DNA of 64,000 nucleotides from Hydrogenophaga sp. Its GTDB lineage: Bacteria > Pseudomonadota > Gammaproteobacteria > Burkholderiales > Burkholderiaceae_C. The notes below the pieces were generated by a model, which ran no database searches, was not told where the DNA came from, and saw only the letters and a program-made list of their open reading frames with translations. The stretch is from contig NZ_JAUCZF010000009.1 in assembly GCF_030373245.1 (NCBI RefSeq), positions 124,001 to 188,000 on the forward strand, given 5' to 3'. Below, piece after piece: positions 1,409-54,669 of this stretch. Both the position numbers and the translations under genes were made by a program. The stretch's first letter is position 1. Every line of letters starts with the position of its first letter.

Positions 1409-2599
<1,191 letters not shown>

Positions 2600-2628
2600 T
2601 CGCCGCCCGCTGGGGGGCATAAGCCAGT

Positions 2629-2704
2629 AGGGGTATAGCTCAATTGGCAGAGCGTCGGTCTCCAAAACCGAAGGTTGTAGGTTCGATTCCTACTGCCCCT
2701 GCCA
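2629..2704 (+). tRNA. tRNA-Trp (anticodon CCA), CCA end encoded
   Basis: Cloverleaf AGGGGTATAGCTCAATTGGCAGAGCGTCGGTCTCCAAAACCGAAGGTTGTAGGTTCGATTCCTACTGCCCCTGCCA read by eye; located between tuf and secE. Confidence 0.96.
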
Positions 2705-2749
2705 CCTGATGGAAATCGTTGGGATCTGATCCCCGCCTCAGGTGGTTTT
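2702..2749 (+). terminator. Hairpin CCACCTGA...TCAGGTGG followed by TTTT, directly after tRNA-Trp
   Basis: 8-bp stem (2702-2709 / 2738-2745) then TTTT; the 5' arm includes the encoded CCA of the tRNA. Confidence 0.55.
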
Positions 2750-2846
2750 CAAGCCCGCCGAAGTCGTCAAGACCTCTGGTGGGCTTGCGTGTCTCAAGCA
2801 GCAGCGCTTCGAGTGCGCGTTTTTGTTAAGCATTGTCTGGAAATTC

Positions 2847-3230
2847 ATGGCCACCTCCGAAGTACAAACCGTCAACAGCAGCGCCGACAAGGCCAAGCTG
2901 GCTGCCGCCGTGCTGCTGCTGGTCGCGGGTTTTGTCGGCTATTACCTGCTCGCGGGCCAGGGTTCGTTGGTGCGCGTGGGTGTGCTGCTGGGCGCCATCG
3001 TGGCCGCCATCGTGGCCTTTGCCGTGTCCGAACCAGGCCGTCAGCTGATCGCCTTTGCTCGCGATTCCTGGCGCGAAACCAAGAAGGTGGTCTGGCCGGC
3101 TCGCAAAGAAGCGATGCAGATGACCGCTTATGTGTTCGCCTTCGTGTTCGTGATGGCGTTGTTTTTGTGGTTGACTGACAAGACCCTGGAATGGGTGCTG
3201 TTCGACCTTGTCCTGGGCTGGAGAAATTAA
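2847..3230 (+). CDS. secE: Preprotein translocase subunit SecE
   Basis: Transmembrane segments and [20 protein letters not shown] motif; ATG at 2847 preferred over the ORF start at 2742. Confidence 0.95.
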
Positions 3231-4356: not shown

Positions 4357-5052
4357 ATGGCCAAACTGACCAAAAAACAGAAAGCCTTCGAAGGCAAGGT
4401 CGACAGCAACAAGCTGTACCCACTGGCTGAGGCGCTGGCCATCATCAAAGAGTGCGCCAACGCCAAATTCGATGAGTCCATCGACGTGGCGGTTCAGCTC
4501 GGTGTGGACGCCAAGAAATCCGATCAGGTGGTGCGCGGCGCCGTCGTGATGCCCAATGGGACCGGCAAGACCAAGCGCGTGGCCGTGTTCGCCCAAGGTG
4601 CCAAAGCCGAAGAAGCCAAGGCCGCTGGGGCCGACGTGGTCGGCATGGACGACCTGGCTGCCGACGTCAAAGCCGGCAAGATGGACTTCGATGTCGTGAT
4701 CGCCTCGCCCGATGCCATGCGCGTCGTCGGCACGCTGGGTCAAATCCTGGGTCCGCGCGGCTTGATGCCCAACCCCAAGGTCGGCACCGTGACGCCCGAT
4801 GTGGCCCAGGCTGTGCGCAACGCCAAGGCTGGTCAGGTGCAGTTCCGCGTCGACAAGGCCGGCATCGTGCACGGCACCATTGGCCGCCGCTCGTTCGACA
4901 GCGACAAGCTCCAAGGCAACCTGGTGGCGCTTCTCGATGCATTGAACAAGGCCAAGCCGGCCACCAGCAAAGGTGTTTACCTGCGCAAGGTGGCGGTGTC
5001 GTCGACCATGGGTGTGGGCGTTCGCGTCGACACGCAGAGCATCTCGGCCTGA
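4357..5052 (+). CDS. rplA: 50S ribosomal protein L1
   Basis: [16 protein letters not shown]..., [23 protein letters not shown] at 4357 right after the rplK stop. Confidence 0.98.
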
Positions 5053-5313
5053 TGGCCTGAAAGAATTCGGGAGTCGCATCGTCAGGTGCGACGCCCGGGT
5101 GTGGTGGGTCCGAAGGGCTGGTGTTGTCACCCGACCTGAGGAGCCATCCAAGACCGCTGGTGTCCAAGGGCCTCAAAGCCCAGCGACTTAATGGTGACAA
5201 GCCAGCGCAGATGGCGATCCCGCTGCAGAAGAAACAAGGGTTTCGAAACAGTTGGTCGCTGCAATGAAGCGTGCCCCAGGCCTCAGGCCGAGGGCACTTT
5301 GAAGGAGTAGACC
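5053..5313 (+). promoter_or_regulatory. Putative L10 (rplJL) autoregulatory leader region
   Basis: About 260-nt non-coding gap between rplA and rplJ, the usual place of the L10(L12)4-binding leader; structure not computed. Confidence 0.45.
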
Positions 5314-5841
5314 TTGAGTCTGAATCGCAGTGAGAAAGAAGCGGTCATTTCCGAAGTGACCAGCCTCGCCGCTAAAGCTCAAACGCTCGTGATGGCGGAG
5401 TACCGTGGCATCACGGTCGCGAACATGGACAAATTGCGCGTGGCAGCACGCAGCAGCGGTGTGAGCCTGAGTGTGTTGAAAAACACCCTGGCACGCCGCG
5501 CTGTGGCTGGCAGCTCGTTTGAAGTGGGCGCCGACCAGATGACCGGTCCGCTGATCTATGGCTTCTCCGAAGACGCCGTGGCTGCCGCGAAAGTGGTGGC
5601 CGAATTCGCGAAAACCAACGACAAGCTGGTGATTCGCGGTGGTGTCTACGGTGGCAAAGTCCTGGACGTCGAGGGCGTGAAGCAGCTGGCCAGCATTCCA
5701 TCCAAGGAAGTGCTGCTGGCCCAGCTGTGTGGCTTGCTGATGTCGCCCATGTCCCGCACCGCCGTGGTGCTGGGTGCGCTGGCGGCGAAAAAAGGCGAAG
5801 GCGCTGCCCCCGCGGCAGCCGAGGAGCCCGCTGCCGCCTGA
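5314..5841 (+). CDS. rplJ: 50S ribosomal protein L10
   Basis: [44 protein letters not shown] start. Confidence 0.98.
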
Positions 5842-5883
5842 AGGCGCAGCGAGCTTGTTTCAACCAATTGTTAGGAAATCAAA

Positions 5884-6261
5884 ATGGCATTCGATAAAGA
5901 CGCATTTCTGACCTCGCTGGACAGCATGACGGTCATGGAACTCAACGACCTGGTGAAAGCCATCGAAGAGAAGTTTGGTGTGAGCGCAGCTGCGATGGCA
6001 GCACCCGCAGCGGGTGGCGGCGGTGGCGCAGCCGCTGCGGCCGAAGAGAAGACCGAGTTCAACGTCGTGCTGCTGGAAGCCGGCGCCAACAAGGTCTCGG
6101 TCATCAAGGCTGTGCGCGAAATCACCGGTCTGGGCCTGAAAGAAGCCAAGGACCTGGTCGATGGCGCACCGAAGAACGTGAAAGAAGCCGTGGCCAAGGC
6201 CGACGCCGACGCCGCTGTGAAGAAGCTGCTCGACGCTGGCGCGAAGGCCGAGCTGAAGTAA
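5884..6261 (+). CDS. rplL: 50S ribosomal protein L7/L12
   Basis: C-terminal domain [43 protein letters not shown]. Confidence 0.99.
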
Positions 6262-6277
6262 TTCGCCCGGTTTCAGG

Positions 6278-6358
6278 GGCTGGAGCGCTCGTGCAGAGCC
6301 TCCAGCCTTTGGTGCTTTCAGAGCACACCCAGCAGCGTGGTCCGCGGACCGCTCTGCT
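6278..6358 (+). promoter_or_regulatory. Two hairpins in the rplL-rpoB spacer (attenuator / RNase III-site-like)
   Basis: GGCTGGA(6278-6284)/TCCAGCC(6301-6307) followed by TTTGG; then the long stem AGCAGCGTGGTCC-GC-GGACCGCTCTGCT (6331-6358). Confidence 0.5.
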
Positions 6359-42634: not shown

Positions 42635-43135
42635 TCAGTTCCAGCCCGGGGCCTTGCGCAGCAGGAAGTTCATCGCTGGCTCGGTGGCCGCGCTGCCTTC
42701 GGCCGGGCGGCGCAGGCCGCGGATTTCGCGGCCGCAGTCGCCAGGCGCGCCTTCCCACACCGCGTCCATGCGCAGGCCATCAGCCGATTCGTCGAGGTTG
42801 AAGGCACCGCTGATCACATCGCCGGACACCAGCGCTTCGCGCTCAGCGCCGGGCGTGCTGCGCCTGAGGCTGCCCCGCACGCTGCCTGCGTACTCCGGAT
42901 GGCGCTCGAACCGCACCACGCCGCGTGAGGCGGGCGCCTGAGCGGTGCCGTTTTCGGGCCACAGGCTGAGCTGCCACTCGCCGTAGAGCTGTGGGCTGAT
43001 GAAGTCGCTCGCTGCGGTGCAGACGCCTGCAGGCGCCGTTGAGGAGGCGGGGGCGGAGCCTTGTGCGGCCGCCATGACGGCTGTCATCGCGAGCGGTAGC
43101 CACAGCAGGGGGAGGAACAGGTGACGCGCATTCAT
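42635..43135 (-). CDS. Hypothetical secreted protein
   Basis: Signal peptide MNARHLFLPLLWLPLAMTAVMAAAQG; start overlaps the downstream end of the rep-like helicase gene. Confidence 0.65.
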   Translation of the reverse strand: MNARHLFLPLLWLPLAMTAVMAAAQGSAPASSTAPAGVCTAASDFISPQLYGEWQLSLWPENGTAQAPASRGVVRFERHPEYAGSVRGSLRRSTPGAEREALVSGDVISGAFNLDESADGLRMDAVWEGAPGDCGREIRGLRRPAEGSAATEPAMNFLLRKAPGWN

Positions 43136-45213
43136 GGGGTTTCGGCCGCCTTGGCAGCGGCCTGTTCGGTGGCGCGCTGGGCAAATTCGGCGCGCAGCGC
43201 ACGCAGCTTTTCGCGCGGATCTTCTTTCACCGTGGCCTGGTCCAGCGCCATCTCCTTGATGAAGCGGCTGGGCAGGCCTGCGACGGTGTCGCGGCCCTTT
43301 TTGCGGCGCTTGAGCCAGCTCACGGCCAGTGTGTAGCGCGCGCGGGTGATGCCCACGTACATCAGGCGGCGCTCTTCCTGCAGCCGCTGCGCCAGCGCCT
43401 CGGCGGGCAGGTCCATGGCGGCCTCATCCATCTTGAAGGGCAGCAGACCTTCGTTGACGCCGACCAGCGTCACGTGCGGCCACTCCAGCCCTTTGGCGGC
43501 GTGCAGGGTCGAGAGGGTGACCACGTTCTGGTCCTGCTCGCGTTCACTCAGCGTGGAGAGCAGCGCAATCGTCTGCACCACCTCCAGCAAGGACTTGCGT
43601 TCGGTTTCCATCTGCACACTCGCGCCATCTTCGATCTGGCCACCGCAGCGCCCGGCCACCCAGTCGCAGAAGTCGGTGACGTTGGTCCAGCGTGAAGCCG
43701 CGAGCTTTTCGCTTTCTTCGCTGTCGTACAGGTGTATTTCGTAGCCGATGTCGGTGAGCCAGTCGGTGAGGAAGCTGCGGGCCGCTTCGGCGCCCACGGT
43801 GTGGCGCGCGCGGTATTCGAGGTCGTTCACCGAGCGGCCAAATTCGTGCAGCGTGGTCACGGCGCGTGCCGGCAGTGCGGCGCTCAGCGAGTGGGCGAAC
43901 AGCGCTTCGAACAGGCTGAGCTTGTACTGGGTGGCGAAGTTGCCGAGCTGCTGCAGCGTGGTGTGGCCGATGCCGCGCTTCGGTGTGGTGGCGGCGCGCA
44001 GAAAGGCCGGGTCGTCGTTGTTGTTGACCAAAAGGCGCAGCCAGGCGCAGAGGTCGCGGATCTCGGCGCGGTCGAAAAAGCTCTGGCCGCCCGAGACCTT
44101 GTAGGGAACCTGCGCGCGCCGAAGCGATTGCTCGAAGGCGCGCGCCATGTGGTTGGCGCGGTAGAGGATGGCGAAGTCGCGCCACTCCTTGTATTGTGAA
44201 TTCGCGCGCAGGCTCTGGATGCGCGCGACCGCGCGATCGGCCTCGTGGTCCTCGTTGTCGGCGTCGACCACGCGCACCGGTTCACCTTCGCCCAGATCGC
44301 TCCACAGCGTCTTGGGGAACAGCTTGGGGTTGGGGCCGATCACCGCGTTGGCCGCGCGCAGGATGCCGCCGGTGGAGCGGTAGTTCTGCTCCAGCGTAAT
44401 CACGCGCAGGTCAGGGTAGTCCTGCGGCAGCTTCTTGAGGTTGTCCAGCGTGGCGCCGCGCCAGCCGTAGATGGACTGGTCGTCGTCGCCCACGGCGGTG
44501 AAGCGGGCGCGCTCGCCCACCAGCAGTTTCAGCAACTCGTATTGCGTGGCGTTGGTGTCCTGGTACTCATCCACCAGCACATGGCCCATCTTTTGCTGCC
44601 AGCGATCGCGCACATCGGCGTGGTCGCGCAGCAGCTTGAGCGGCAGGCCGATCAGGTCGTCGAAGTCCACGCTCTGGTAGGCGGTGAGGCGCTCTTCATA
44701 GCGCGCCATGATGGTGGCGGTGGTGCGCTCGCTGTCGTCCTTGGCCTGGGCCAGGGCCAGGGCGGCGGTCATGCCTGCGCTCTTCCAGGCGCTGATGGCC
44801 CACTGCCAGGCGCGCGCGGTGTTGGCGTCGGTGGTGCCACCGCAGTCTTTCAAGAGGCTGGTGATGTCGTCGGTGTCGAGGATGCTGAAGTTTTTCTTCA
44901 GGCCCAGGGTGTCCCCGTCTTCGCGCAGCAGGCGCACGCCCAGTGCGTGAAAGGTGCAGATCAGCACCTTGCGCGCATCGCGCCCGACCAGCTGCTTGGC
45001 GCGTTCGCGCATCTCGGCCGCGGCCTTGTTGGTGAAGGTGATGGCGGCGATGCGGTCGGCCGCCAGGCCGGCCTGGATGAGACGGCCGATCTTGTGCGTG
45101 ATCACGCGCGTCTTGCCCGAGCCTGCGCCCGCGAGCACGAGGCAGGGGCCGCCGAGGTGGTTCACGGCGTCTTGCTGGGCCTGGTTGAGACCGGGGCCGG
45201 TTGGGGCTGACAT
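43132..45213 (-). CDS. rep: UvrD/Rep-family ATP-dependent DNA helicase
   Basis: LNQAQQDAVNHLGGPCLVLAGAGSGKTRVITHKI; VDEYQDTNATQYELLK; GDDDQSIYGWRGA; EERRLMYVGITRAR. Confidence 0.95.
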   Translation of the reverse strand: MSAPTGPGLNQAQQDAVNHLGGPCLVLAGAGSGKTRVITHKIGRLIQAGLAADRIAAITFTNKAAAEMRERAKQLVGRDARKVLICTFHALGVRLLREDGDTLGLKKNFSILDTDDITSLLKDCGGTTDANTARAWQWAISAWKSAGMTAALALAQAKDDSERTTATIMARYEERLTAYQSVDFDDLIGLPLKLLRDHADVRDRWQQKMGHVLVDEYQDTNATQYELLKLLVGERARFTAVGDDDQSIYGWRGATLDNLKKLPQDYPDLRVITLEQNYRSTGGILRAANAVIGPNPKLFPKTLWSDLGEGEPVRVVDADNEDHEADRAVARIQSLRANSQYKEWRDFAILYRANHMARAFEQSLRRAQVPYKVSGGQSFFDRAEIRDLCAWLRLLVNNNDDPAFLRAATTPKRGIGHTTLQQLGNFATQYKLSLFEALFAHSLSAALPARAVTTLHEFGRSVNDLEYRARHTVGAEAARSFLTDWLTDIGYEIHLYDSEESEKLAASRWTNVTDFCDWVAGRCGGQIEDGASVQMETERKSLLEVVQTIALLSTLSEREQDQNVVTLSTLHAAKGLEWPHVTLVGVNEGLLPFKMDEAAMDLPAEALAQRLQEERRLMYVGITRARYTLAVSWLKRRKKGRDTVAGLPSRFIKEMALDQATVKEDPREKLRALRAEFAQRATEQAAAKAAETP

Positions 45214-45492: not shown

Positions 45493-46194
45493 ATGAGAAG
45501 AGACCTGTTTTTGCGCTGCGCCGGGGCGGCGCTGGGAGGCCTGGTGATCGGGCCGGTGTTGAGTGGCTGTGGCGGAGGCGACGAGGAGCTGGCGGATGCG
45601 GCTTTGCCAGCCGACCGCACCGCGGTGACCACTGACCCTGCGACGAGTTCGGCGCCTGCGGTGCCCGAGGACCTGTCCGCCGAAGAGATCGCCGGCCTGC
45701 TGTTCATGCGCGAGGAAGAAAAGCTGGCGTACGACGTGTATGTCGCCCTGTTCAACCGTTGGGGTCACAACGTGTTCAACCAGATCGCCCAGAGCGAGGC
45801 ACAGCACGCCGAGACCATGCGCCTGCTGGTGCTTGCCCATGGGCTGGTCGATCCGGCGGCCGGCAACCCTCCCGGCGTGTTCGTGAACACGGACCTCCAG
45901 GCGATGTACGACACCCTGGTGGCGCGCGGGCAGACCAGCCTGATCGACGCCCTCAAGGTGGGCTGCCTGATCGAGGAAAAGGACATCCAGGACATCAACG
46001 ACAAAAAGGCCGAGGTGCTGGACGAGCCCGATATCGTGCAGGTCTACGACAACCTGCTCTGTGGTTCTCGCAACCACCTGCGCGCCTTCAACCGCACGCT
46101 GGTCAGCCAGGGCGGGGTGTACGTGCCCGAGGTGATCACCCAGGCCGAGTGGGACGCCATTGCAAATTCGCCCAACGAGACCTGTGGCGGATAA
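45493..46194 (+). CDS. DUF2202 domain lipoprotein (ferritin-like fold)
   Basis: Lipobox-like GPVLSGC; LSAEEIAGLLFMREEEKLAYDVYVALFNRWGHNVFNQIAQSEAQHAE. Confidence 0.85.
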   Translation: MRRDLFLRCAGAALGGLVIGPVLSGCGGGDEELADAALPADRTAVTTDPATSSAPAVPEDLSAEEIAGLLFMREEEKLAYDVYVALFNRWGHNVFNQIAQSEAQHAETMRLLVLAHGLVDPAAGNPPGVFVNTDLQAMYDTLVARGQTSLIDALKVGCLIEEKDIQDINDKKAEVLDEPDIVQVYDNLLCGSRNHLRAFNRTLVSQGGVYVPEVITQAEWDAIANSPNETCGG

Positions 46195-46258: not shown

Positions 46259-46801
46259 TCATGCGAGCACCAGCCAGGCAGTGAGGCCGAAGCCCGCGTT
46301 GTAGAACGCGTGCACGCCCACCGCCGGCCATACGCTGCTGAACCGCTCACGCAGGTGGCCAAACACGAGTGAGGGCACGGCCACCGCCAGCGCCCAGGCC
46401 AGCGGTTGCGCGCGCAGGTGCAGGGCCACGAAGGCAACGGTGACCAGCGCGTTGGCGAGCGTCAGCGGTCCCAGACGCATCGGCCGCCCGCCGCGCTGCA
46501 ACCAGACCAGCGCCTGGCCTTGCAGCAGACCGCGAAACACCAGCTCTTCCAGCAGCGGCTGCACCAGCACCAGTGACACCCAGGCCCACGCGCCAGGCGG
46601 CGCGCGCAGGTGCGGCCCCAACAGCAGGCCCAGTGCCAGCCAGACGGGCAGGGCGGCCATCATCGCCAGCGCCAGATGGGTATCCGGCGGCCAGGTGAAC
46701 AGGGGCGGGTGCGGTCGGGTGACGCCCAAGGCCTCGGCCAGCGTGGGCGACGCGGGCGCGCTGGGCGGATAGCTCGGGTCTGGTGGTTGAGGAGAGGTCA
46801 C
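46259..46801 (-). CDS. CPBP-family glutamic-type intramembrane protease (candidate sorting protease, MrtJ-like)
   Basis: Glutamic protease motifs EELVFRGLLQG, FVALHL and VHAFYNAG; multiple TM segments; GTG start at 46801 likely (ORF open to 46903). Confidence 0.82.
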   Translation of the reverse strand: MTSPQPPDPSYPPSAPASPTLAEALGVTRPHPPLFTWPPDTHLALAMMAALPVWLALGLLLGPHLRAPPGAWAWVSLVLVQPLLEELVFRGLLQGQALVWLQRGGRPMRLGPLTLANALVTVAFVALHLRAQPLAWALAVAVPSLVFGHLRERFSSVWPAVGVHAFYNAGFGLTAWLVLA

Positions 46802-46879
46802 AAAAGCGATCTTCCCATGTTGTCGTTGCCTTGCATCCCGAGGGCTTGCGTGGCCAGGGGCCGCTGAGCATTCGCCCAG

Positions 46880-46911
46880 AAAAAAGGCGCCGCCTGTTGC
46901 CATCGGCGCCT
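46880..46911 (-). terminator. Rho-independent terminator for the LVIVD lipoprotein gene
   Basis: Minus strand AGGCGCCG ATGGCAACAGG CGGCGCCT TTTTT. Confidence 0.75.
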
Positions 46912-46955
46912 GCGGATCACCCTGCCTGCCGGAGCAGGCGGGGTTTGGCCAGTGC

Positions 46956-49900
46956 TTACTTCAGGACGCTGAGGCCGCCGGCTCCAGCCGCGACATAGAC
47001 ACGCCCGTTGTTGATGGCGGTTGCCGCTGCGCCACCGACCACGCCCTTGATCGCCATCACGGATGGTGCCGCCACGTTGCTCCAGTCGAGCTTGACCACA
47101 CCGGCTGGGCCGTAGGCCACGTAGAACAGCAGCCTGGGCGAGGTCAGCGTGTAGGTCCTGCTGCCGTCGCTCAGCAACTGGTCGGCCGGGAAGTATTGCG
47201 ACGTCATGTAGAGCGCGCCACCGTCCACGTCCGCATAGGGCGACGGCGTGGTCACCACACCCATGGCGTCCTGGACCTCGCCGTACTTCTGCAGCTTGAA
47301 GTAACCGGCAGCGGTCGGGCGACACTCAGCCACGCCACCCTGCTTGGCGCTCAGCTTCGTCACGTCTGTCACGGCCAAGCAAGCATCCGGTGCCTGACCG
47401 ACGGGCACCACGGCCGGACGCTCCTCGGTGGCGGGACGGATCAGATCGGCCATGCGGTAGGCCACCAGACCAAAGCTGTCGTAGCTGAAGTAGGCAACGT
47501 TACCGACGATATGCACATCGACACTCTTGCCGTCGGCCGAGCCAAACGCATTGTCATCGTCGGACTTCACGGGCTCGAAGGTCTTGATCAGCTTGTCGAT
47601 GCCGAGATCAGCAGGTTGACCGCTGGCCAGGAAGGCGGTCATGTCGACCACTGAGATGCCGTAGGCACCGGCGGCCACCACCGCGTAGGTCTTGCCCGTC
47701 ATGGTGTCGTTCCACAGTTTCACCGTGGCTGCGCGACCCAGTGGGGGCTTGCCCTGGTTGCCTGCGCCGTCGGAGTCACCGAGGTTGGCGACCACGCTGG
47801 CGTCTGTGCCACCTGCTGCCGTGGTGTCGTAGATGGTCAGCCCGTTGTCACCGTCCGCCACGATGGCGTATTTGCCGTGGAAGGTCACGCCGTAGGCATG
47901 GTCCTGCCCTTCGACTCTGACCAGGCCAATGCTGCCGGCCTCGGTGTTGTGCTCGTAGATGCCACCCGCTGCGTCCAGGATGGCGGGAGAACCAACCTGC
48001 GCGCTGCCCCCCGTGACGGCCGACACATCCACTCGGCGCATGCCCAGGCTCTGGCTCATCACATAGGCCTTGTTCGGGTCGCTGCCGAAGCCCACCTTGA
48101 AGGCGTGGGGCGTGGGCTGCACGCCGGTTGGCGAAGTCGCGTACTCATCCTGCAAGGTATTGGCCACCAGTTTCAGGGTGTCGATCGGTGTGAAGCCATC
48201 GGCAATGGTCCACACGCTCACGCCGTGCGGGCCGTCGGCCAGGTACAGGTGGTTGCCCGAAACGGTCACGCCTTCAGCATGGCCGATGGCAATCGGCTGG
48301 GTCGCTGACCCGTCTTCTGCTGCGCCCACTTCGTTGGTGCTCACCAGGTTCACCGGCACATCGAAGCGGCTGGCCACCGCCGTTCCCGAGCTCTGGCCCA
48401 GGTCAATGAAGTCGATGAAACTCACGCCACCGGCTCCGGATGACTGCACTGCGTCAACCGTGCCTGCGCCCGCCGTGTTCATGGTGGGCATCAGGAAAAG
48501 CGAGCCGCCATGGCCGTTGATCTCCCCCGTCACCAGCCTGACGGGTGCCGTGTAGTTGTTGCCCGCAGCGGTCAGGAACTTGGGTAGCGATTCGTCGCCC
48601 ACCGGAACGGGCGTCATGTCGTACGACGTGACGAACTCGTAGTCGGGCCAGAACACCTTGGTGTCCGTATCGTTGTCGAACGATGATGGGGGTGCCGGAT
48701 TCTTCCAGGAGGTGGCTGGATCCTCGGCGCCGCTCACCACCACCAGACCCGCAAAGTGGTCGGTGTAGTAGGCCATGTAACCGCTGGCACCATCCGGCAC
48801 CACGCGCACATCCATCACGCCGGCTTCCTTCAGCATGCCGGAGCCGAAGTGCGACAGGATGCCCTTCTTGTCCACGTTGATGGGTGGTTCGTCCGGGCCA
48901 TGCGCCGGGGCTGCCGGCACATAGCCCGCGTACACAGGGGCGGCGGGCGCCGTGACATCCACAGCAACCAGACCTCCCAGCCCATAAGCGATGTAGGCCA
49001 TGGTCTTGCCACCGATGACCTGCACGTCCATGGTGCGGGCGTTGTAGTAGTACTTGCCGTAGCGGTCGAACTCGGCCCAGGGATTCCAGCTCAGGCCGCC
49101 GGTGCTGCTCTTGTTGTCCAGTTCGGCCGCTGCTTGCAAGTAGGTCGGCATACCCTCAGCAAGATCAACCGCGTTGATGTCGATGGGGGTGAAGCCGCCA
49201 GCGACAGCGGTTCCCACCGTTGCGCCGGGACACGCGATCTTGCGCTGCGGATAACCAAACCAGTCTTCCTGAGCGTTGTTGGTGCAATCGGCGTACAGGT
49301 TGTAGGCACCCACTGCGGTCAGATCGACGGGATCGAAGATGCCCATGCCCAGGAAGCCCAGCGCCGCGTAAAGCCTGCCGTCCGCCATCCTCAGGCTCAT
49401 GGGTCCGCCCCAAGGGTTTTCGCCCGCGTAGGTCAGCGTGTAGGCCTGTACCGTCGGGCTGTCGATGGTGAGCGCGCCGTCGCCGGTGGCACCGATCAGG
49501 TTGGCCAGGCTGGTCTTCTGGATGCCATAGGCCTCGTTGGCGATGAACAGCTGGTCGTCTGTGGTGTCGGGCGTGCCCCTGTCGTCCACCAGAAGGTCAT
49601 TCACCACACCGTCGGTGTGTACCGTCTCGGGCTCGGAAAATTCGTTGCCTCCGCCGTCCACGGTGGTGAATGCGGGCGCCGTGTAGCCCACGCTCATGGT
49701 TCGCAGGTAGCTCATGGCCACAGGGTTGGTGATGTCCACCACCCCGATGCCCTTGTCACCCATGGACAGGAGCGCGTAGCTTGCCCCTGCGTAGTCTTTC
49801 ACCACGGTGATGTGCTGGATGTAGCCAGGCACGGTGATTTCGGTTGTAGCGCCCTTGTTCATGCCGACGGGCGTTGCCGCAAAGCGGTTGGCCATGGTGT

Positions 49901-50171
49901 ACAGCGTCCACTGGGTAGTGCCGTCGTCGTACAGCGCCACATCCTGCGTGCCACCCCCAATCTGAGCGGCCAGGGTGTCGATGTTGGCCTCGATGATGGT
50001 GACGGGTGTGGGCGTGGTCGACGACCCGCTTCCGCAGCCGCTCACGAGCAAAGCCACCGCGGCCGCCATCGCGATGCCAGCCTGAGCCATAGGTTGCATA
50101 TGCCGCTTGAACCGCGCTGGGTTCGCGGCCTCATGGGGCTTGCTCAAGGGCAATTTGACGCTGACGGACAT
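46956..50171 (-). CDS. Large LVIVD-repeat (beta-propeller-like) lipoprotein, 1071 aa
   Basis: Lipobox AVALLVSGCGSGSS; repeated VVDITNPVAMSYLRT / VAVDVTAPAAPVYAGYV / SVVDMTAFL type motifs. Confidence 0.8.
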   Translation of the reverse strand: MSVSVKLPLSKPHEAANPARFKRHMQPMAQAGIAMAAAVALLVSGCGSGSSTTPTPVTIIEANIDTLAAQIGGGTQDVALYDDGTTQWTLYTMANRFAATPVGMNKGATTEITVPGYIQHITVVKDYAGASYALLSMGDKGIGVVDITNPVAMSYLRTMSVGYTAPAFTTVDGGGNEFSEPETVHTDGVVNDLLVDDRGTPDTTDDQLFIANEAYGIQKTSLANLIGATGDGALTIDSPTVQAYTLTYAGENPWGGPMSLRMADGRLYAALGFLGMGIFDPVDLTAVGAYNLYADCTNNAQEDWFGYPQRKIACPGATVGTAVAGGFTPIDINAVDLAEGMPTYLQAAAELDNKSSTGGLSWNPWAEFDRYGKYYYNARTMDVQVIGGKTMAYIAYGLGGLVAVDVTAPAAPVYAGYVPAAPAHGPDEPPINVDKKGILSHFGSGMLKEAGVMDVRVVPDGASGYMAYYTDHFAGLVVVSGAEDPATSWKNPAPPSSFDNDTDTKVFWPDYEFVTSYDMTPVPVGDESLPKFLTAAGNNYTAPVRLVTGEINGHGGSLFLMPTMNTAGAGTVDAVQSSGAGGVSFIDFIDLGQSSGTAVASRFDVPVNLVSTNEVGAAEDGSATQPIAIGHAEGVTVSGNHLYLADGPHGVSVWTIADGFTPIDTLKLVANTLQDEYATSPTGVQPTPHAFKVGFGSDPNKAYVMSQSLGMRRVDVSAVTGGSAQVGSPAILDAAGGIYEHNTEAGSIGLVRVEGQDHAYGVTFHGKYAIVADGDNGLTIYDTTAAGGTDASVVANLGDSDGAGNQGKPPLGRAATVKLWNDTMTGKTYAVVAAGAYGISVVDMTAFLASGQPADLGIDKLIKTFEPVKSDDDNAFGSADGKSVDVHIVGNVAYFSYDSFGLVAYRMADLIRPATEERPAVVPVGQAPDACLAVTDVTKLSAKQGGVAECRPTAAGYFKLQKYGEVQDAMGVVTTPSPYADVDGGALYMTSQYFPADQLLSDGSRTYTLTSPRLLFYVAYGPAGVVKLDWSNVAAPSVMAIKGVVGGAAATAINNGRVYVAAGAGGLSVLK

Positions 50172-50360
50172 GGAAGTCTCCTGTAAAAACCGAACGGAAA
50201 ACGCACTACCCAGTTCAGTATTTCTCTTCCATCGGCTGGCGCATTGACTGGCGTCAATCGGCTCCAGATTCGTGCTGGGCCTCTACACCGGGGAACCTGG
50301 TGCGCGTTGTTCTTTGGACGCACGGTCGCGACGGCGATGCAGTGCAAAGCCGCCGACCAA

Positions 50361-50395
50361 GAAAAAAACGCCGGGCGTTGCCGCGCGGCGTTTTG
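50361..50395 (-). terminator. Rho-independent terminator downstream of the choice-of-anchor F-like gene
   Basis: Minus strand AAAACGCCG...CGGCGTTTTTTTC. Confidence 0.8.
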
Positions 50396-50437
50396 GAAAA
50401 AGTCCCGAGGCGCATGGGCCCCGGGGAATGGCAGGTT

Positions 50438-52041
50438 TCAGCTGTGGCGCGAGCGGCGGCGCAGTCCCCAGCCAGCAAGTCCCAGCGCGGCCAGCAGCGG
50501 CAGCATCGGGTCGATCGGCGGGTTGCCCGGGACGGCGGTGCAGCCACCACCCTGGTCAACCGTCGCAGGCGGCGTCACTGGCGGTGTCACCGGTGGAACC
50601 AGGGGTGCTGGTTCTGCAGCGAGGAAGGTCGGCGCCACCTGCGAGTCGGCCACCACCGGGATGATGCGGATGGTGAACGTCGATCGGGAGGTCATGGCGT
50701 CGTTGTCCAGGTCATCACCGACTTTCACGATGTAGTTGATACCCAGGTTCAGCACGTCTTCGATGTGAGACACCGCGTAGAGTGGGTCATTGCCCCAGGC
50801 CTCAAGCGTGGCCGCCGGGATGGGGGTGAACCCGCCGTCGTTGTTGCTCACCCACTGGCTGCCGTTCCACCAGGCTTGCAGCACCGCGTCGGTGTTTGGG
50901 TCGTTGTCGTCGTCGAAGAAGACACCGCTCGGCTGCCAGGTGCTGGGCAGCCAGTCGCCGAACAGGGTGGTGTAGTTGCTTGGCAAGACGGTGGTCGATT
51001 CGATCGTGTCGGAGTTGATCAGGTCGGGGCCACCAACGAACGGGTTGGGCGTGGTGCTGCATGGCGGGACTGCGCAGCTTTGCGTCACGTCGAATCCTGC
51101 CGTCCGCGTGTCGAAGAAGCCATTCGCGGGGAAGTTGGCGTCGATGGCGCCAAACAGTCCGTGGGAGAAGGTGGCCAGCCCGTCGCCGTCAAACAGGTCG
51201 GATCCGTTCGGTGCTCCCATGGATCCGGACGACCAGCCCTCGCCCCTGCCCAGTGAAATGTGCAGCTTGTCGGCGATACCCAGGGCACTGGCCGACTGAA
51301 AGCCGGTGCCCGTGCCGACGCCCACCACGATCCTGTACCCCTTGAGCCGCTTGCCGGTGTAGTTGTTGATCTTGCTGAACACTTGGTAAGGTGTGAGGCC
51401 GCCACCGTCGCTCACGTTGAACACCATGTCGATGGGCTTGTCGCTGGCAGCGCCGTCGGCCACTCCTTCCACCGTGGCAGGCTGCATCGCAATCTTGAAC
51501 CGCTTGTGCGACTGAAAGCCGCTGGAGCAGATGACGGGCTCGGGTGCGGTGCTGTTGAGGTAGGCTCCAGGCCGCTGGTGCTGACGTCAAATCCCAGGTA
51601 CGAAGAGTTGATCAGGCAGTTTTGCGGCTTGCCGTTCTTGGTCTGGGTGTCGCCGTTGACTGCCTTGATGCCGCTCGGCTCACCGACCGGCCAGACCTTG
51701 CCGGTGACCTTGGCCATGACGCTGCCCATCGCATCCTTCACCGAGCTGATGAAGCTCTCGCCGCTGGCCATGGCGGCGTAGGCGCCGGTCGACTTCTCGA
51801 ACGAGCCGAAAGTGGTTGTGCCGTCGGCTCGAACCTGTTGCACGTCGACGTTGTCGAGGTTCCAGGCGCCGACGCAGGCTTCGGCTGCACCCGATGTGCC
51901 GCACGACCCTAGGAAGGTGGGTGCAACGGTGGGGTTGCTGTCGGCAATCACACCCGCCTGGGCGCTGGTTGCGAGCAACATGGCCGCGACCGCAAGGCTG
52001 ACGGGGTTGGTTTTGCGGGAGAGTGGGGATGCATATTCCAT
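50438..52041 (-). pseudogene. Secreted choice-of-anchor F-like protein with GGGCT/TM/Arg C-terminal sorting tail; reading frame interrupted (1-nt shift near 51565)
   Basis: N-terminal ORF 51412..52041 (signal peptide SLAVAAMLLATSAQA) and C-terminal ORF 50438..51487 join if one base is restored near 51565: ...SGLE[x]YLNSTAPEPVICSSGFQSHKRFKIAMQPATVEG... Confidence 0.75.
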
Positions 52042-52195
52042 GGGGCTGTTGTCCTGCTCAAAGAAAACGGAAATGAAGAAAAGGGCTCACTTCCCATGTG
52101 CGCAAATACCAGTTGGGGGTATGTGGGAACCCAGGCTGCGGTTGAGACATGTCAACTGCACTGCGCCATTGGGGTGACGTGATCCGATGCGGGGG

Positions 52196-52230
52196 AAGAA
52201 AAATGGCCACCGCCGAGGCAGTGGCCATTT
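52196..52230 (-). terminator. Rho-independent terminator downstream of the 800-aa anchor protein gene
   Basis: Minus strand AAATGGCCACTGCCTCGGCGGTGGCCATTTTTC. Confidence 0.85.
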
Positions 52231-52266
52231 CAGGTACTGGGGCAATGCGCCCCAGGCCATGGGGCA

Positions 52267-54669
52267 TCAGCTGCGACGTGCGCGGCGCAGGCCCCAGCCG
52301 GCCAGGCCAAGTGCGGCCAGCAGCGGCAGCATCGGGTCGATCGGCGCGTTGCCCGAAGCGGTTGTGCAGCCACCACCACCGTCGGTGGTGCCAGGCGTGA
52401 TGCCAGGCACGGTGCCATCGTCAACTTCCACGATGTCGGCGCTGCGGAAGGCCGCAGCGGAGCCCGTGGTGTTTTCGGTGTTGAAAGTGCCATAGACACG
52501 GCCGCCGTCGGGACGGGCCACCACTTGAGCCTCGAAGGCATAGTCTTCGTCGTCAAACAGGCTGCCGCGCTCGTTCGAGTACTCGACCGCCGGTATGAAG
52601 GTCTGGCCGCCATCCTTGCTCACCGTGAGGTAGATGCCAAGGTCATCGCCCCCGTTCGGGTCGAACGGCGACACGTTGGTCTGCGAGCCGTAGGCCACGA
52701 AGATCACGTTCTTGGCCTGACACAGCGTCGCATCCAGCGTCGTCGGATCTGCCGGGTTACCGGTTGGGCAGCCGACCGGCTGGCTTGGCGGTGTCCCGAA
52801 GAAGCGCGGCTCACGCACGTTGATGCGCGTGTCGGTGATGTTGGTGATGTTGTACGGCAAAGCCCAGCTACCGGTGCTGGTCGCAGGGTCAAACGTGTAC
52901 TTGCGCACCCAGAAGTTGTAGTTGTCTTGCTGTGCCCACATCTTCACCAGGTCGTTGGTGTAGTTGTAGCCAATCCACAGCTCGTCACCCCGCAACACCC
53001 CGCGGTGGGCCAGGGCGTTTTCGGCGAAGTTCACTTCCGTGCCGTCGCCCAGGCCGCTGTCAGTCGCGGTCAGGAACGGCGCGCGGCTGCTGATGTTTTC
53101 TGGCAGCGCGTTGGCGAGACCAATGGCGGTGGTGTAGTCCGAAGTCGCGCAGTTGGGATCGACGGCTGGGACCATGTTGGTGCTGGCCAGCCCACCCATA
53201 CCGCGGCGCACCACGATGTCGGACGGGCCGCCTTTGTCAAACAGGCCTTCCTTCCAGAAGATTGCAATGTTGACGCCACCGGGTGAAGCCACGCTGCCGT
53301 CCTGCGTCAGGAAACGCACGCGACGGGCATTTTTCAGCGGGTTGCTGATGACGCAGCCTGGTGTAGCGGCTGGGGGTGTGTTGTATGGGAAGTTCAGGTA
53401 ACGAACAAACTTGCCTGAGTCCAGACCCTGCGAACCCTTGGTTTCCTCCCAGGCCAGCACCGAGGTCGGGCCCACCATGAAGATGTTGGGCCGCGAAGCA
53501 CCCGCATTGCCTTTTTCGACCTCCTGACCCGCAGCCTTGCCGTCCAGATTGGTGCCGTCGGCGCCGAACACATTGGAGATCTGGCCGGTTAAGCCATACG
53601 TGCTGCCATCCCAGTTGTCGGTCACACGGTAAGCCTTGCTTCTGGCAGTACGGGGAGTACCTTCACCCGGCGCAAGGGTGATCACCCCGCCGGCCAGGTC
53701 CGCGTAGGTGTACCAGACATCGGTGCCGCCGGTGACGTTGGCGCCGGAAGCGCCATCACCCGGGCCGTCGGCGTCGCCAGGCTGCAGGCCTTCTGGATCC
53801 TCTTGCCACGAGATGTTGAAGCGACCCGTGGAGGTGGTCGAGTTGTAATTGCCACTGCTGGCATCTTGCTTGGCATCGCGCTCGCCGTTGCTCAATTGAA
53901 CGGCTGAGCGCCATGTCACGCCGTTGTTGGTCGAGGCAGCCATCCAGGTGCAAGAAAACGGAATGATGCGGTTCTCGCGGTCCAGGTAGCGGATGGCGCG
54001 CTGGTTCGCATTGGGGAAGAAATTCGGGTCGGTGCCGTCCGCGACGGGCGCGTTGGCATCGCTCAAGTCATTGTCCGGGCAGTACTTGCTGGTCCAGGTC
54101 AGCACCATCACGGGACCGCTGGTCTTGATGTTGGGCTTGTCGATGTCACCATAGAAAGGGAGACGCCCGGTCACCGGATCGCCGCCTTGCCATGCGGTCT
54201 GAATACTGTATTTGTCAGCCGACTTCGAGACGTTGACAGCAGCGCTCCAGTCGCTGTCCACATCGCAGGTTTTGCGTGGTGTGGTTGTGGTGTCTGTCTC
54301 GGGCGTTGGGGTGCAGTAGCGAACGAAGATATCGCGTGCTTTGCGTTCTTCCTGCGCCTTGGTGTCATAGATTGTGGGCGCCGCGTCAAAGGTATCGCCA
54401 TACGCCATGACCAAGTTGCCGTTGGAGCCAGCGCGCTGGATTTTGGGCTTGTGGCCGCTGCCACCCGTGCTGATGCTGATCTCGGGCTTGAGCTGGATCT
54501 GCGTGACGATCGCGGCGTAGGCCATGCCGGCCACCGCCACGGTACCCAGCAGAGCCAGCTTCTTGCGCTTGAATTTCATGAAATGCCTCCAGTCGATGAA
54601 AGGGAAACGTGCGGAGATAACTCCTACACGTACCAGTATCCAATCGTTACGGAAGGTGACCATTGACAC
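52267..54669 (-). CDS. Large secreted protein with GGGGCT/TM/Arg C-terminal sorting tail (possibly the choice-of-anchor O type, sialidase-like repeats)
   Basis: Signal peptide LALLGTVAVAGMAYA; Asp-box-like SxDxGxTW variants (STNNGVTWRSAV, SKDGGQTFIPAV); tail GGGGCTTASGNAPIDPMLPLLAALGLAGWGLRRARRS. The true start may be the internal MKFKRKK at about 54579. Confidence 0.8.
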   Translation of the reverse strand: MSMVTFRNDWILVRVGVISARFPFIDWRHFMKFKRKKLALLGTVAVAGMAYAAIVTQIQLKPEISISTGGSGHKPKIQRAGSNGNLVMAYGDTFDAAPTIYDTKAQEERKARDIFVRYCTPTPETDTTTTPRKTCDVDSDWSAAVNVSKSADKYSIQTAWQGGDPVTGRLPFYGDIDKPNIKTSGPVMVLTWTSKYCPDNDLSDANAPVADGTDPNFFPNANQRAIRYLDRENRIIPFSCTWMAASTNNGVTWRSAVQLSNGERDAKQDASSGNYNSTTSTGRFNISWQEDPEGLQPGDADGPGDGASGANVTGGTDVWYTYADLAGGVITLAPGEGTPRTARSKAYRVTDNWDGSTYGLTGQISNVFGADGTNLDGKAAGQEVEKGNAGASRPNIFMVGPTSVLAWEETKGSQGLDSGKFVRYLNFPYNTPPAATPGCVISNPLKNARRVRFLTQDGSVASPGGVNIAIFWKEGLFDKGGPSDIVVRRGMGGLASTNMVPAVDPNCATSDYTTAIGLANALPENISSRAPFLTATDSGLGDGTEVNFAENALAHRGVLRGDELWIGYNYTNDLVKMWAQQDNYNFWVRKYTFDPATSTGSWALPYNITNITDTRINVREPRFFGTPPSQPVGCPTGNPADPTTLDATLCQAKNVIFVAYGSQTNVSPFDPNGGDDLGIYLTVSKDGGQTFIPAVEYSNERGSLFDDEDYAFEAQVVARPDGGRVYGTFNTENTTGSAAAFRSADIVEVDDGTVPGITPGTTDGGGGCTTASGNAPIDPMLPLLAALGLAGWGLRRARRS

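Follow-up and report, generated by a model that had tools for sequence, protein, structure and literature searches.

A probable JDVT-CTERM/MrtJ protein-sorting locus with several predicted clients in a Hydrogenophaga-type bacterium

MrtX of Myxococcus has been found experimentally to cleave proteins carrying the MYXO-CTERM signal, in a Cys-dependent manner and with a role in their sorting to the cell surface (PMC11980579). The model built around this protease comprises Sec export, lipidation of the Cys, cleavage distal to it, transport by the type II secretion system (T2SS) and lipid anchoring; lipidation and the lipidating enzyme are proposals in that source (PMC11980579). The JDVT-CTERM/MrtJ pair is likewise on record in the literature, as summarised in the passages of PMC11980579 that deal with it. 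C-terminal sorting with a CPBP domain is also the principle of the VPEID-CTERM/exosortase E system, in which the exosortase is fused to the CPBP domain. The subject of the present analysis is a gene cluster on the minus strand of a 64,000-nucleotide stretch of Hydrogenophaga sp. DNA (contig NZ_JAUCZF010000009.1, positions 124,001 to 188,000; hereafter ‘the window’), which holds a CPBP-type protease gene and two cargo genes, named choice-of-anchor O and choice-of-anchor F after their families, that end in almost the same tail. This cluster is very probably a locus for C-terminal sorting by the JDVT-CTERM/MrtJ system in a Hydrogenophaga-type bacterium, a reading that includes the mechanism set out below.

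The protease gene, mrtJ (46259-46801, minus strand), encodes a 180-amino acid glutamic-type CPBP intramembrane protease assigned to the JDVT-CTERM system. Its product scores 103.4 bits against the NCBIfam model NF033192 (CPBP_JDVT_MrtJ), well over the curated cut-off of 75 bits, and 60.1 bits against PF02517. Other myxosortase models match it as well, all under their own cut-offs, so that membership is specific to MrtJ. The motifs read in the first-pass annotation (EELVFR, FVALH and HAFYN, for EExxxR, FxxxH and HxxxN) are present and intact, and E84, E85, R89, H127, H163 and N167 do not vary among nine aligned MrtJ sequences. Judging from the sequence, translation probably starts at GTG 46801 in preference to ATG 46903, since the latter sits inside a GGCGCC terminator hairpin followed by T6 and the homology of relatives begins (VTAP or VTPP in the same alignment) at the position of the GTG. 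The nine-sequence alignment was too diverse for scanning contigs, which was done with five MrtJ.

The protease also matches PF02517, and proteins of the CPBP kind are widespread, which could speak for an ordinary CAAX/Abi-type protease, with a bacteriocin immunity or housekeeping function, and for processing of the tails by something else. Such an assignment is highly improbable: among the NCBIfam models listed, the cut-off passed is that of the MrtJ equivalog alone, contrary to the grouping with ordinary Abi/CAAX proteases that the first-pass annotation had named as a refutation, and the tails are both linked to and co-distributed with the protease, as detailed below.

The two tails, already noticed as near-identical GGGCT-helix-Arg endings on the protease strand, lie 4.2 and 6.0 kb upstream of mrtJ. 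That of choice-of-anchor F, GGGCTAVPGNPPIDPMLPLLAALGLAGWGLRRRSRHS (50453-50551, minus strand), scores 40.8 bits and that of choice-of-anchor O, GGGGCTTASGNAPIDPMLPLLAALGLAGWGLRRARRS (52276-52380, minus strand), 35.7 bits against the JDVT-CTERM model NF033191. Both exceed the curated cut-off of 27 bits, which nothing in 14 control genomes does, and they are thus not attributable to chance. The tail DNA of the two genes is identical in 92 of 114 columns, whereas the protein bodies give no significant match to each other (best E 0.032). The first-pass description of ‘two unrelated secreted proteins’ thus stands as regards ‘unrelated’; ‘secreted’ does not hold for the 349-amino acid open reading frame (ORF) 50438-51487, which has no signal peptide in the frame of its tail. 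The genome-wide tail search that had been suggested yields three JDVT-CTERM tails over the cut-off in the window’s genome, two at the locus and one on contig C1.

Tails and protease are conserved together across genomes, and their lack of co-conservation had been named beforehand as a refutation. Of 42 genomes of the family that were compared, 25 have an MrtJ match and 22 of these carry JDVT tails, whereas none of the 17 without MrtJ does (Fisher p about 4e-9), the 17 being the first listed and not a random draw, and all the genomes compared being mutually related. The three MrtJ genomes without a JDVT tail are assemblies 70-85% complete. Linkage is also marked, with 26 of 33 tails at most 15 kb from an MrtJ; among the 22 tail-bearing genomes, seven have a tail away from MrtJ and eight have several tails. 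In the sampled family, choice-of-anchor O is confined to MrtJ genomes (4/4), every copy standing beside an MrtJ. The choice-of-anchor F protein of an MrtJ-less genome (G220) ends without a JDVT tail, as the name ‘choice of anchor’ would lead one to expect.

A different protease for the tails could be sought in the genome’s other CPBP domain, which belongs to a VPEID-CTERM-type fusion of exosortase E with a CPBP protease. The tails, however, match JDVT-CTERM, the NCBIfam scan of both cargos, taken to an E-value of 10, brings up no VPEID-CTERM signal, and tail presence across genomes tracks MrtJ; processing by the fusion protein is rated as extremely unlikely. The fusion gene itself lies on contig C3 (G000:C3:87450-89012; 1456-3156 of locus L002), scores 238 bits against TIGR04162 (cut-off 150) and marks a second C-terminal sorting system in this genome.

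Compared with the described systems, the locus agrees best with JDVT-CTERM/MrtJ: protease and tails alike score over the curated cut-offs, the host is betaproteobacterial and the protease gene adjoins its tagged targets. It differs in that the cluster holds two tagged cargos and an LVIVD-repeat lipoprotein gene, with a third tagged protein, a subtilase, encoded elsewhere; several tails per genome are also found in other surveyed genomes. With MYXO-CTERM/MrtX it shares a related protease core and the tail plan with its invariant Cys, but the window protease is shorter and its 36.3 bits to MrtX stay far under the cut-offs of MrtX (180) and Mrt_core (100). One window tail just passes the MYXO-CTERM model (22.2 bits versus a cut-off of 20), and JDVT-CTERM gives the higher scores for the tails. 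From VPEID-CTERM/exosortase E, the locus is set apart by the lack of a fused exosortase and by its tails.

The first-pass annotation had put forward a ‘candidate dedicated’ sorting system and named, as the closest pair, JDVT-CTERM/MrtJ. The curated models give the same answer for protease and tails. ‘Candidate’ makes it sound newer than it is, the pair having been described already (reportedly by Haft in 2024, in J Bacteriol), and ‘dedicated’ has to be qualified by the tagged protein outside the locus. The locus is a well supported further member of a known system, of little novelty, and no new kind of system. Its interest lies in confirming that JDVT-CTERM/MrtJ reaches Hydrogenophaga-type bacteria and in pairing one protease with several predicted clients. 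Moreover, a compact locus with a 180-amino acid protease and a cargo restricted to MrtJ genomes in the sampled family is a convenient test bed for modification of the tail Cys.

What is observed here is that protease and tails belong to their families, occur together and are linked, that the protease motifs are intact, and that the window’s genome encodes the T2SS secretin GspD (612 bits); every step past gene identification is modelled by analogy on MrtX of Myxococcus. By that analogy, the cargo would be exported by Sec through its N-terminal signal peptide and held in the inner membrane by its C-terminal helix, the Arg end remaining cytoplasmic. The Cys of the GGGCT motif might then be lipidated, a speculative step, and MrtJ, as an Rce1-like glutamic intramembrane protease, would cut the helix off next to this Cys, cleavage being assumed from MrtX and the exact site speculative. 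Once folded, the cargo would reach the cell surface by way of the T2SS and be held there by the lipid on the Cys.

Several points weigh against the reading as a whole, besides the make-up of the MrtJ-negative sample mentioned above. The window’s MrtJ, at 180 amino acids, is short, and its hydrophobic segments do not reach the number of helices, seven, given for MrtX; the mechanism is therefore transferred from MrtX by family only. The Cys-lipidating enzyme is a proposal even for MrtX, and the activity of this MrtJ is predicted from sequence. Finally, one of the two cargos in the locus, choice-of-anchor F, is frameshifted as assembled.

As judged from sequence, the MrtJ clients in the window’s genome would be choice-of-anchor O, the frameshifted choice-of-anchor F and an unlinked S8 subtilase. 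The choice-of-anchor O gene (52267-54594, minus strand; NF040591, 459.5 bits) encodes 775 amino acids from the codon at 54594, with a putative N-terminal Sec signal peptide (...LALLGTVAVAGMAYA; read by eye) and the JDVT-CTERM tail. Two Asp-box motifs in the protein, a number reached in 20 of 2000 shuffles, together with low-confidence fold matches, suggest a sialidase-like beta-propeller. The matches are sialidases found by Foldseek, with low template modelling (TM)-scores and about 10% identity, and they start from a weak AlphaFold model with a predicted local distance difference test (pLDDT) value of 44 and a predicted TM-score (pTM) of 0.54. A profile of the protein gave no significant match among PDB sequences, and a PHROGs search gave no match. 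For choice-of-anchor F, the AlphaFold prediction (three sequences) was unusable, with a pLDDT of 29.7. The subtilase (PF00082, 150 bits; 4545-6293 of locus L083) bears the best-scoring JDVT-CTERM tail of the genome (48 bits; G000:C1:749553-749657) and is unlinked to mrtJ. In a relative of the same genus (G234, locus L079), the homologous protein has its own JDVT tail and MrtJ is about 4 kb away. In relatives, the JDVT tag is also carried by choice-of-anchor D, Q and U proteins.

The lesion in the choice-of-anchor F gene was located by tblastn with the homologue from genome G051, near 51556-51590. This homologue aligns in two pieces, in frame +1 to about 51556 and in frame +3 from 51565, with a join at approximately 51565. 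The 5′ part (51556-52041, minus strand, within ORF 51412-52041) contains the putative signal peptide, and the 3′ part (50438-51590, minus strand, including the 349-amino acid ORF; NF033657, 174.7 bits) contains the tail in the other frame. A programmed frameshift was considered and rejected, as no slippery heptamer was recognised by eye and the homologues in loci L062 and L060 each read through in one unbroken frame. Alternatively, the gene may be truly broken, in the course of being lost from the lineage, with MrtJ serving here the choice-of-anchor O cargo and the remote subtilase. The frameshift itself points that way, as do the nearest relatives, loci L052 (MrtJ 96% identical) and L057, in which choice-of-anchor O, the LVIVD-repeat protein and MrtJ stand without choice-of-anchor F. 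However, no other lesion shows in either half when set against homologues, and the tail is undamaged, so that an indel introduced in assembling this draft genome is just as likely; the chances of genuine loss are put at about even. Whether real or an assembly indel, the frameshift leaves the identity of the system as JDVT-CTERM/MrtJ unchanged.

On the minus strand, the order of transcription is choice-of-anchor O, choice-of-anchor F, the LVIVD-repeat lipoprotein and mrtJ. The lipoprotein gene (46956-50171, minus strand; PF08309, 27.1 bits), absent from the first-pass annotation, lies between the tails and the protease; its product has a lipobox (LVSGC) and no JDVT tail. In six further loci (L052, L054, L057, L060, L062 and L077), an LVIVD lipoprotein gene is found at most 10 kb from mrtJ, and among 201 genomes of the family it occurs only in the window’s genome (G000) and in G051, both with MrtJ. 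A single operon was rejected on account of hairpin terminators on the minus strand after the choice-of-anchor O gene (approximately 52199-52237; 14-bp hairpin with a T run, -25 kcal/mol, z -7.4), the choice-of-anchor F gene (50396-50425; hairpin with a T run, -16.1 kcal/mol) and the LVIVD gene (approximately 46876-46909; hairpin with T6, -16.5 kcal/mol). The genes are therefore probably separate transcription units that form a cluster. No sigma-70-like promoter match was seen in the region, which is uninformative given the high GC content of the genome.

Convergent with mrtJ is a gene for a DUF2202 lipoprotein (45493-46194, plus strand; PF09968, 164.9 bits), which we take to be ferritin-like. 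It adjoins mrtJ in many relative loci. As a strict partner of MrtJ it was discarded, since no MrtJ is seen in 8 of the 13 genomes of the family that carry DUF2202, which makes for a weaker association. The UvrD-type helicase gene uvrD (43132-45213) is syntenic with mrtJ in several relatives; part of the synteny around mrtJ is accordingly plain inheritance. In this Burkholderiales clade, MrtJ could serve a multi-part surface module acting together, made up of the sialidase-fold-like choice-of-anchor O protein, choice-of-anchor F, the LVIVD and DUF2202 lipoproteins, in some genomes a diheme cytochrome and, in trans, the JDVT-tagged subtilase, and not a single dedicated target; this proposal is tentative and leans towards the doubtful.

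A diheme c-type cytochrome gene of the SO2930 family (TIGR03806) stands beside MrtJ in loci L052 (4693-5949), L055 (7269-8510) and L060 (11498-12763); none was seen near mrtJ in the window. Hydrogenophaga sp. S07.Bin102 has mrtJ at two separate loci (L052 and L057), and a choice-of-anchor O gene and an LVIVD lipoprotein gene accompany each copy.
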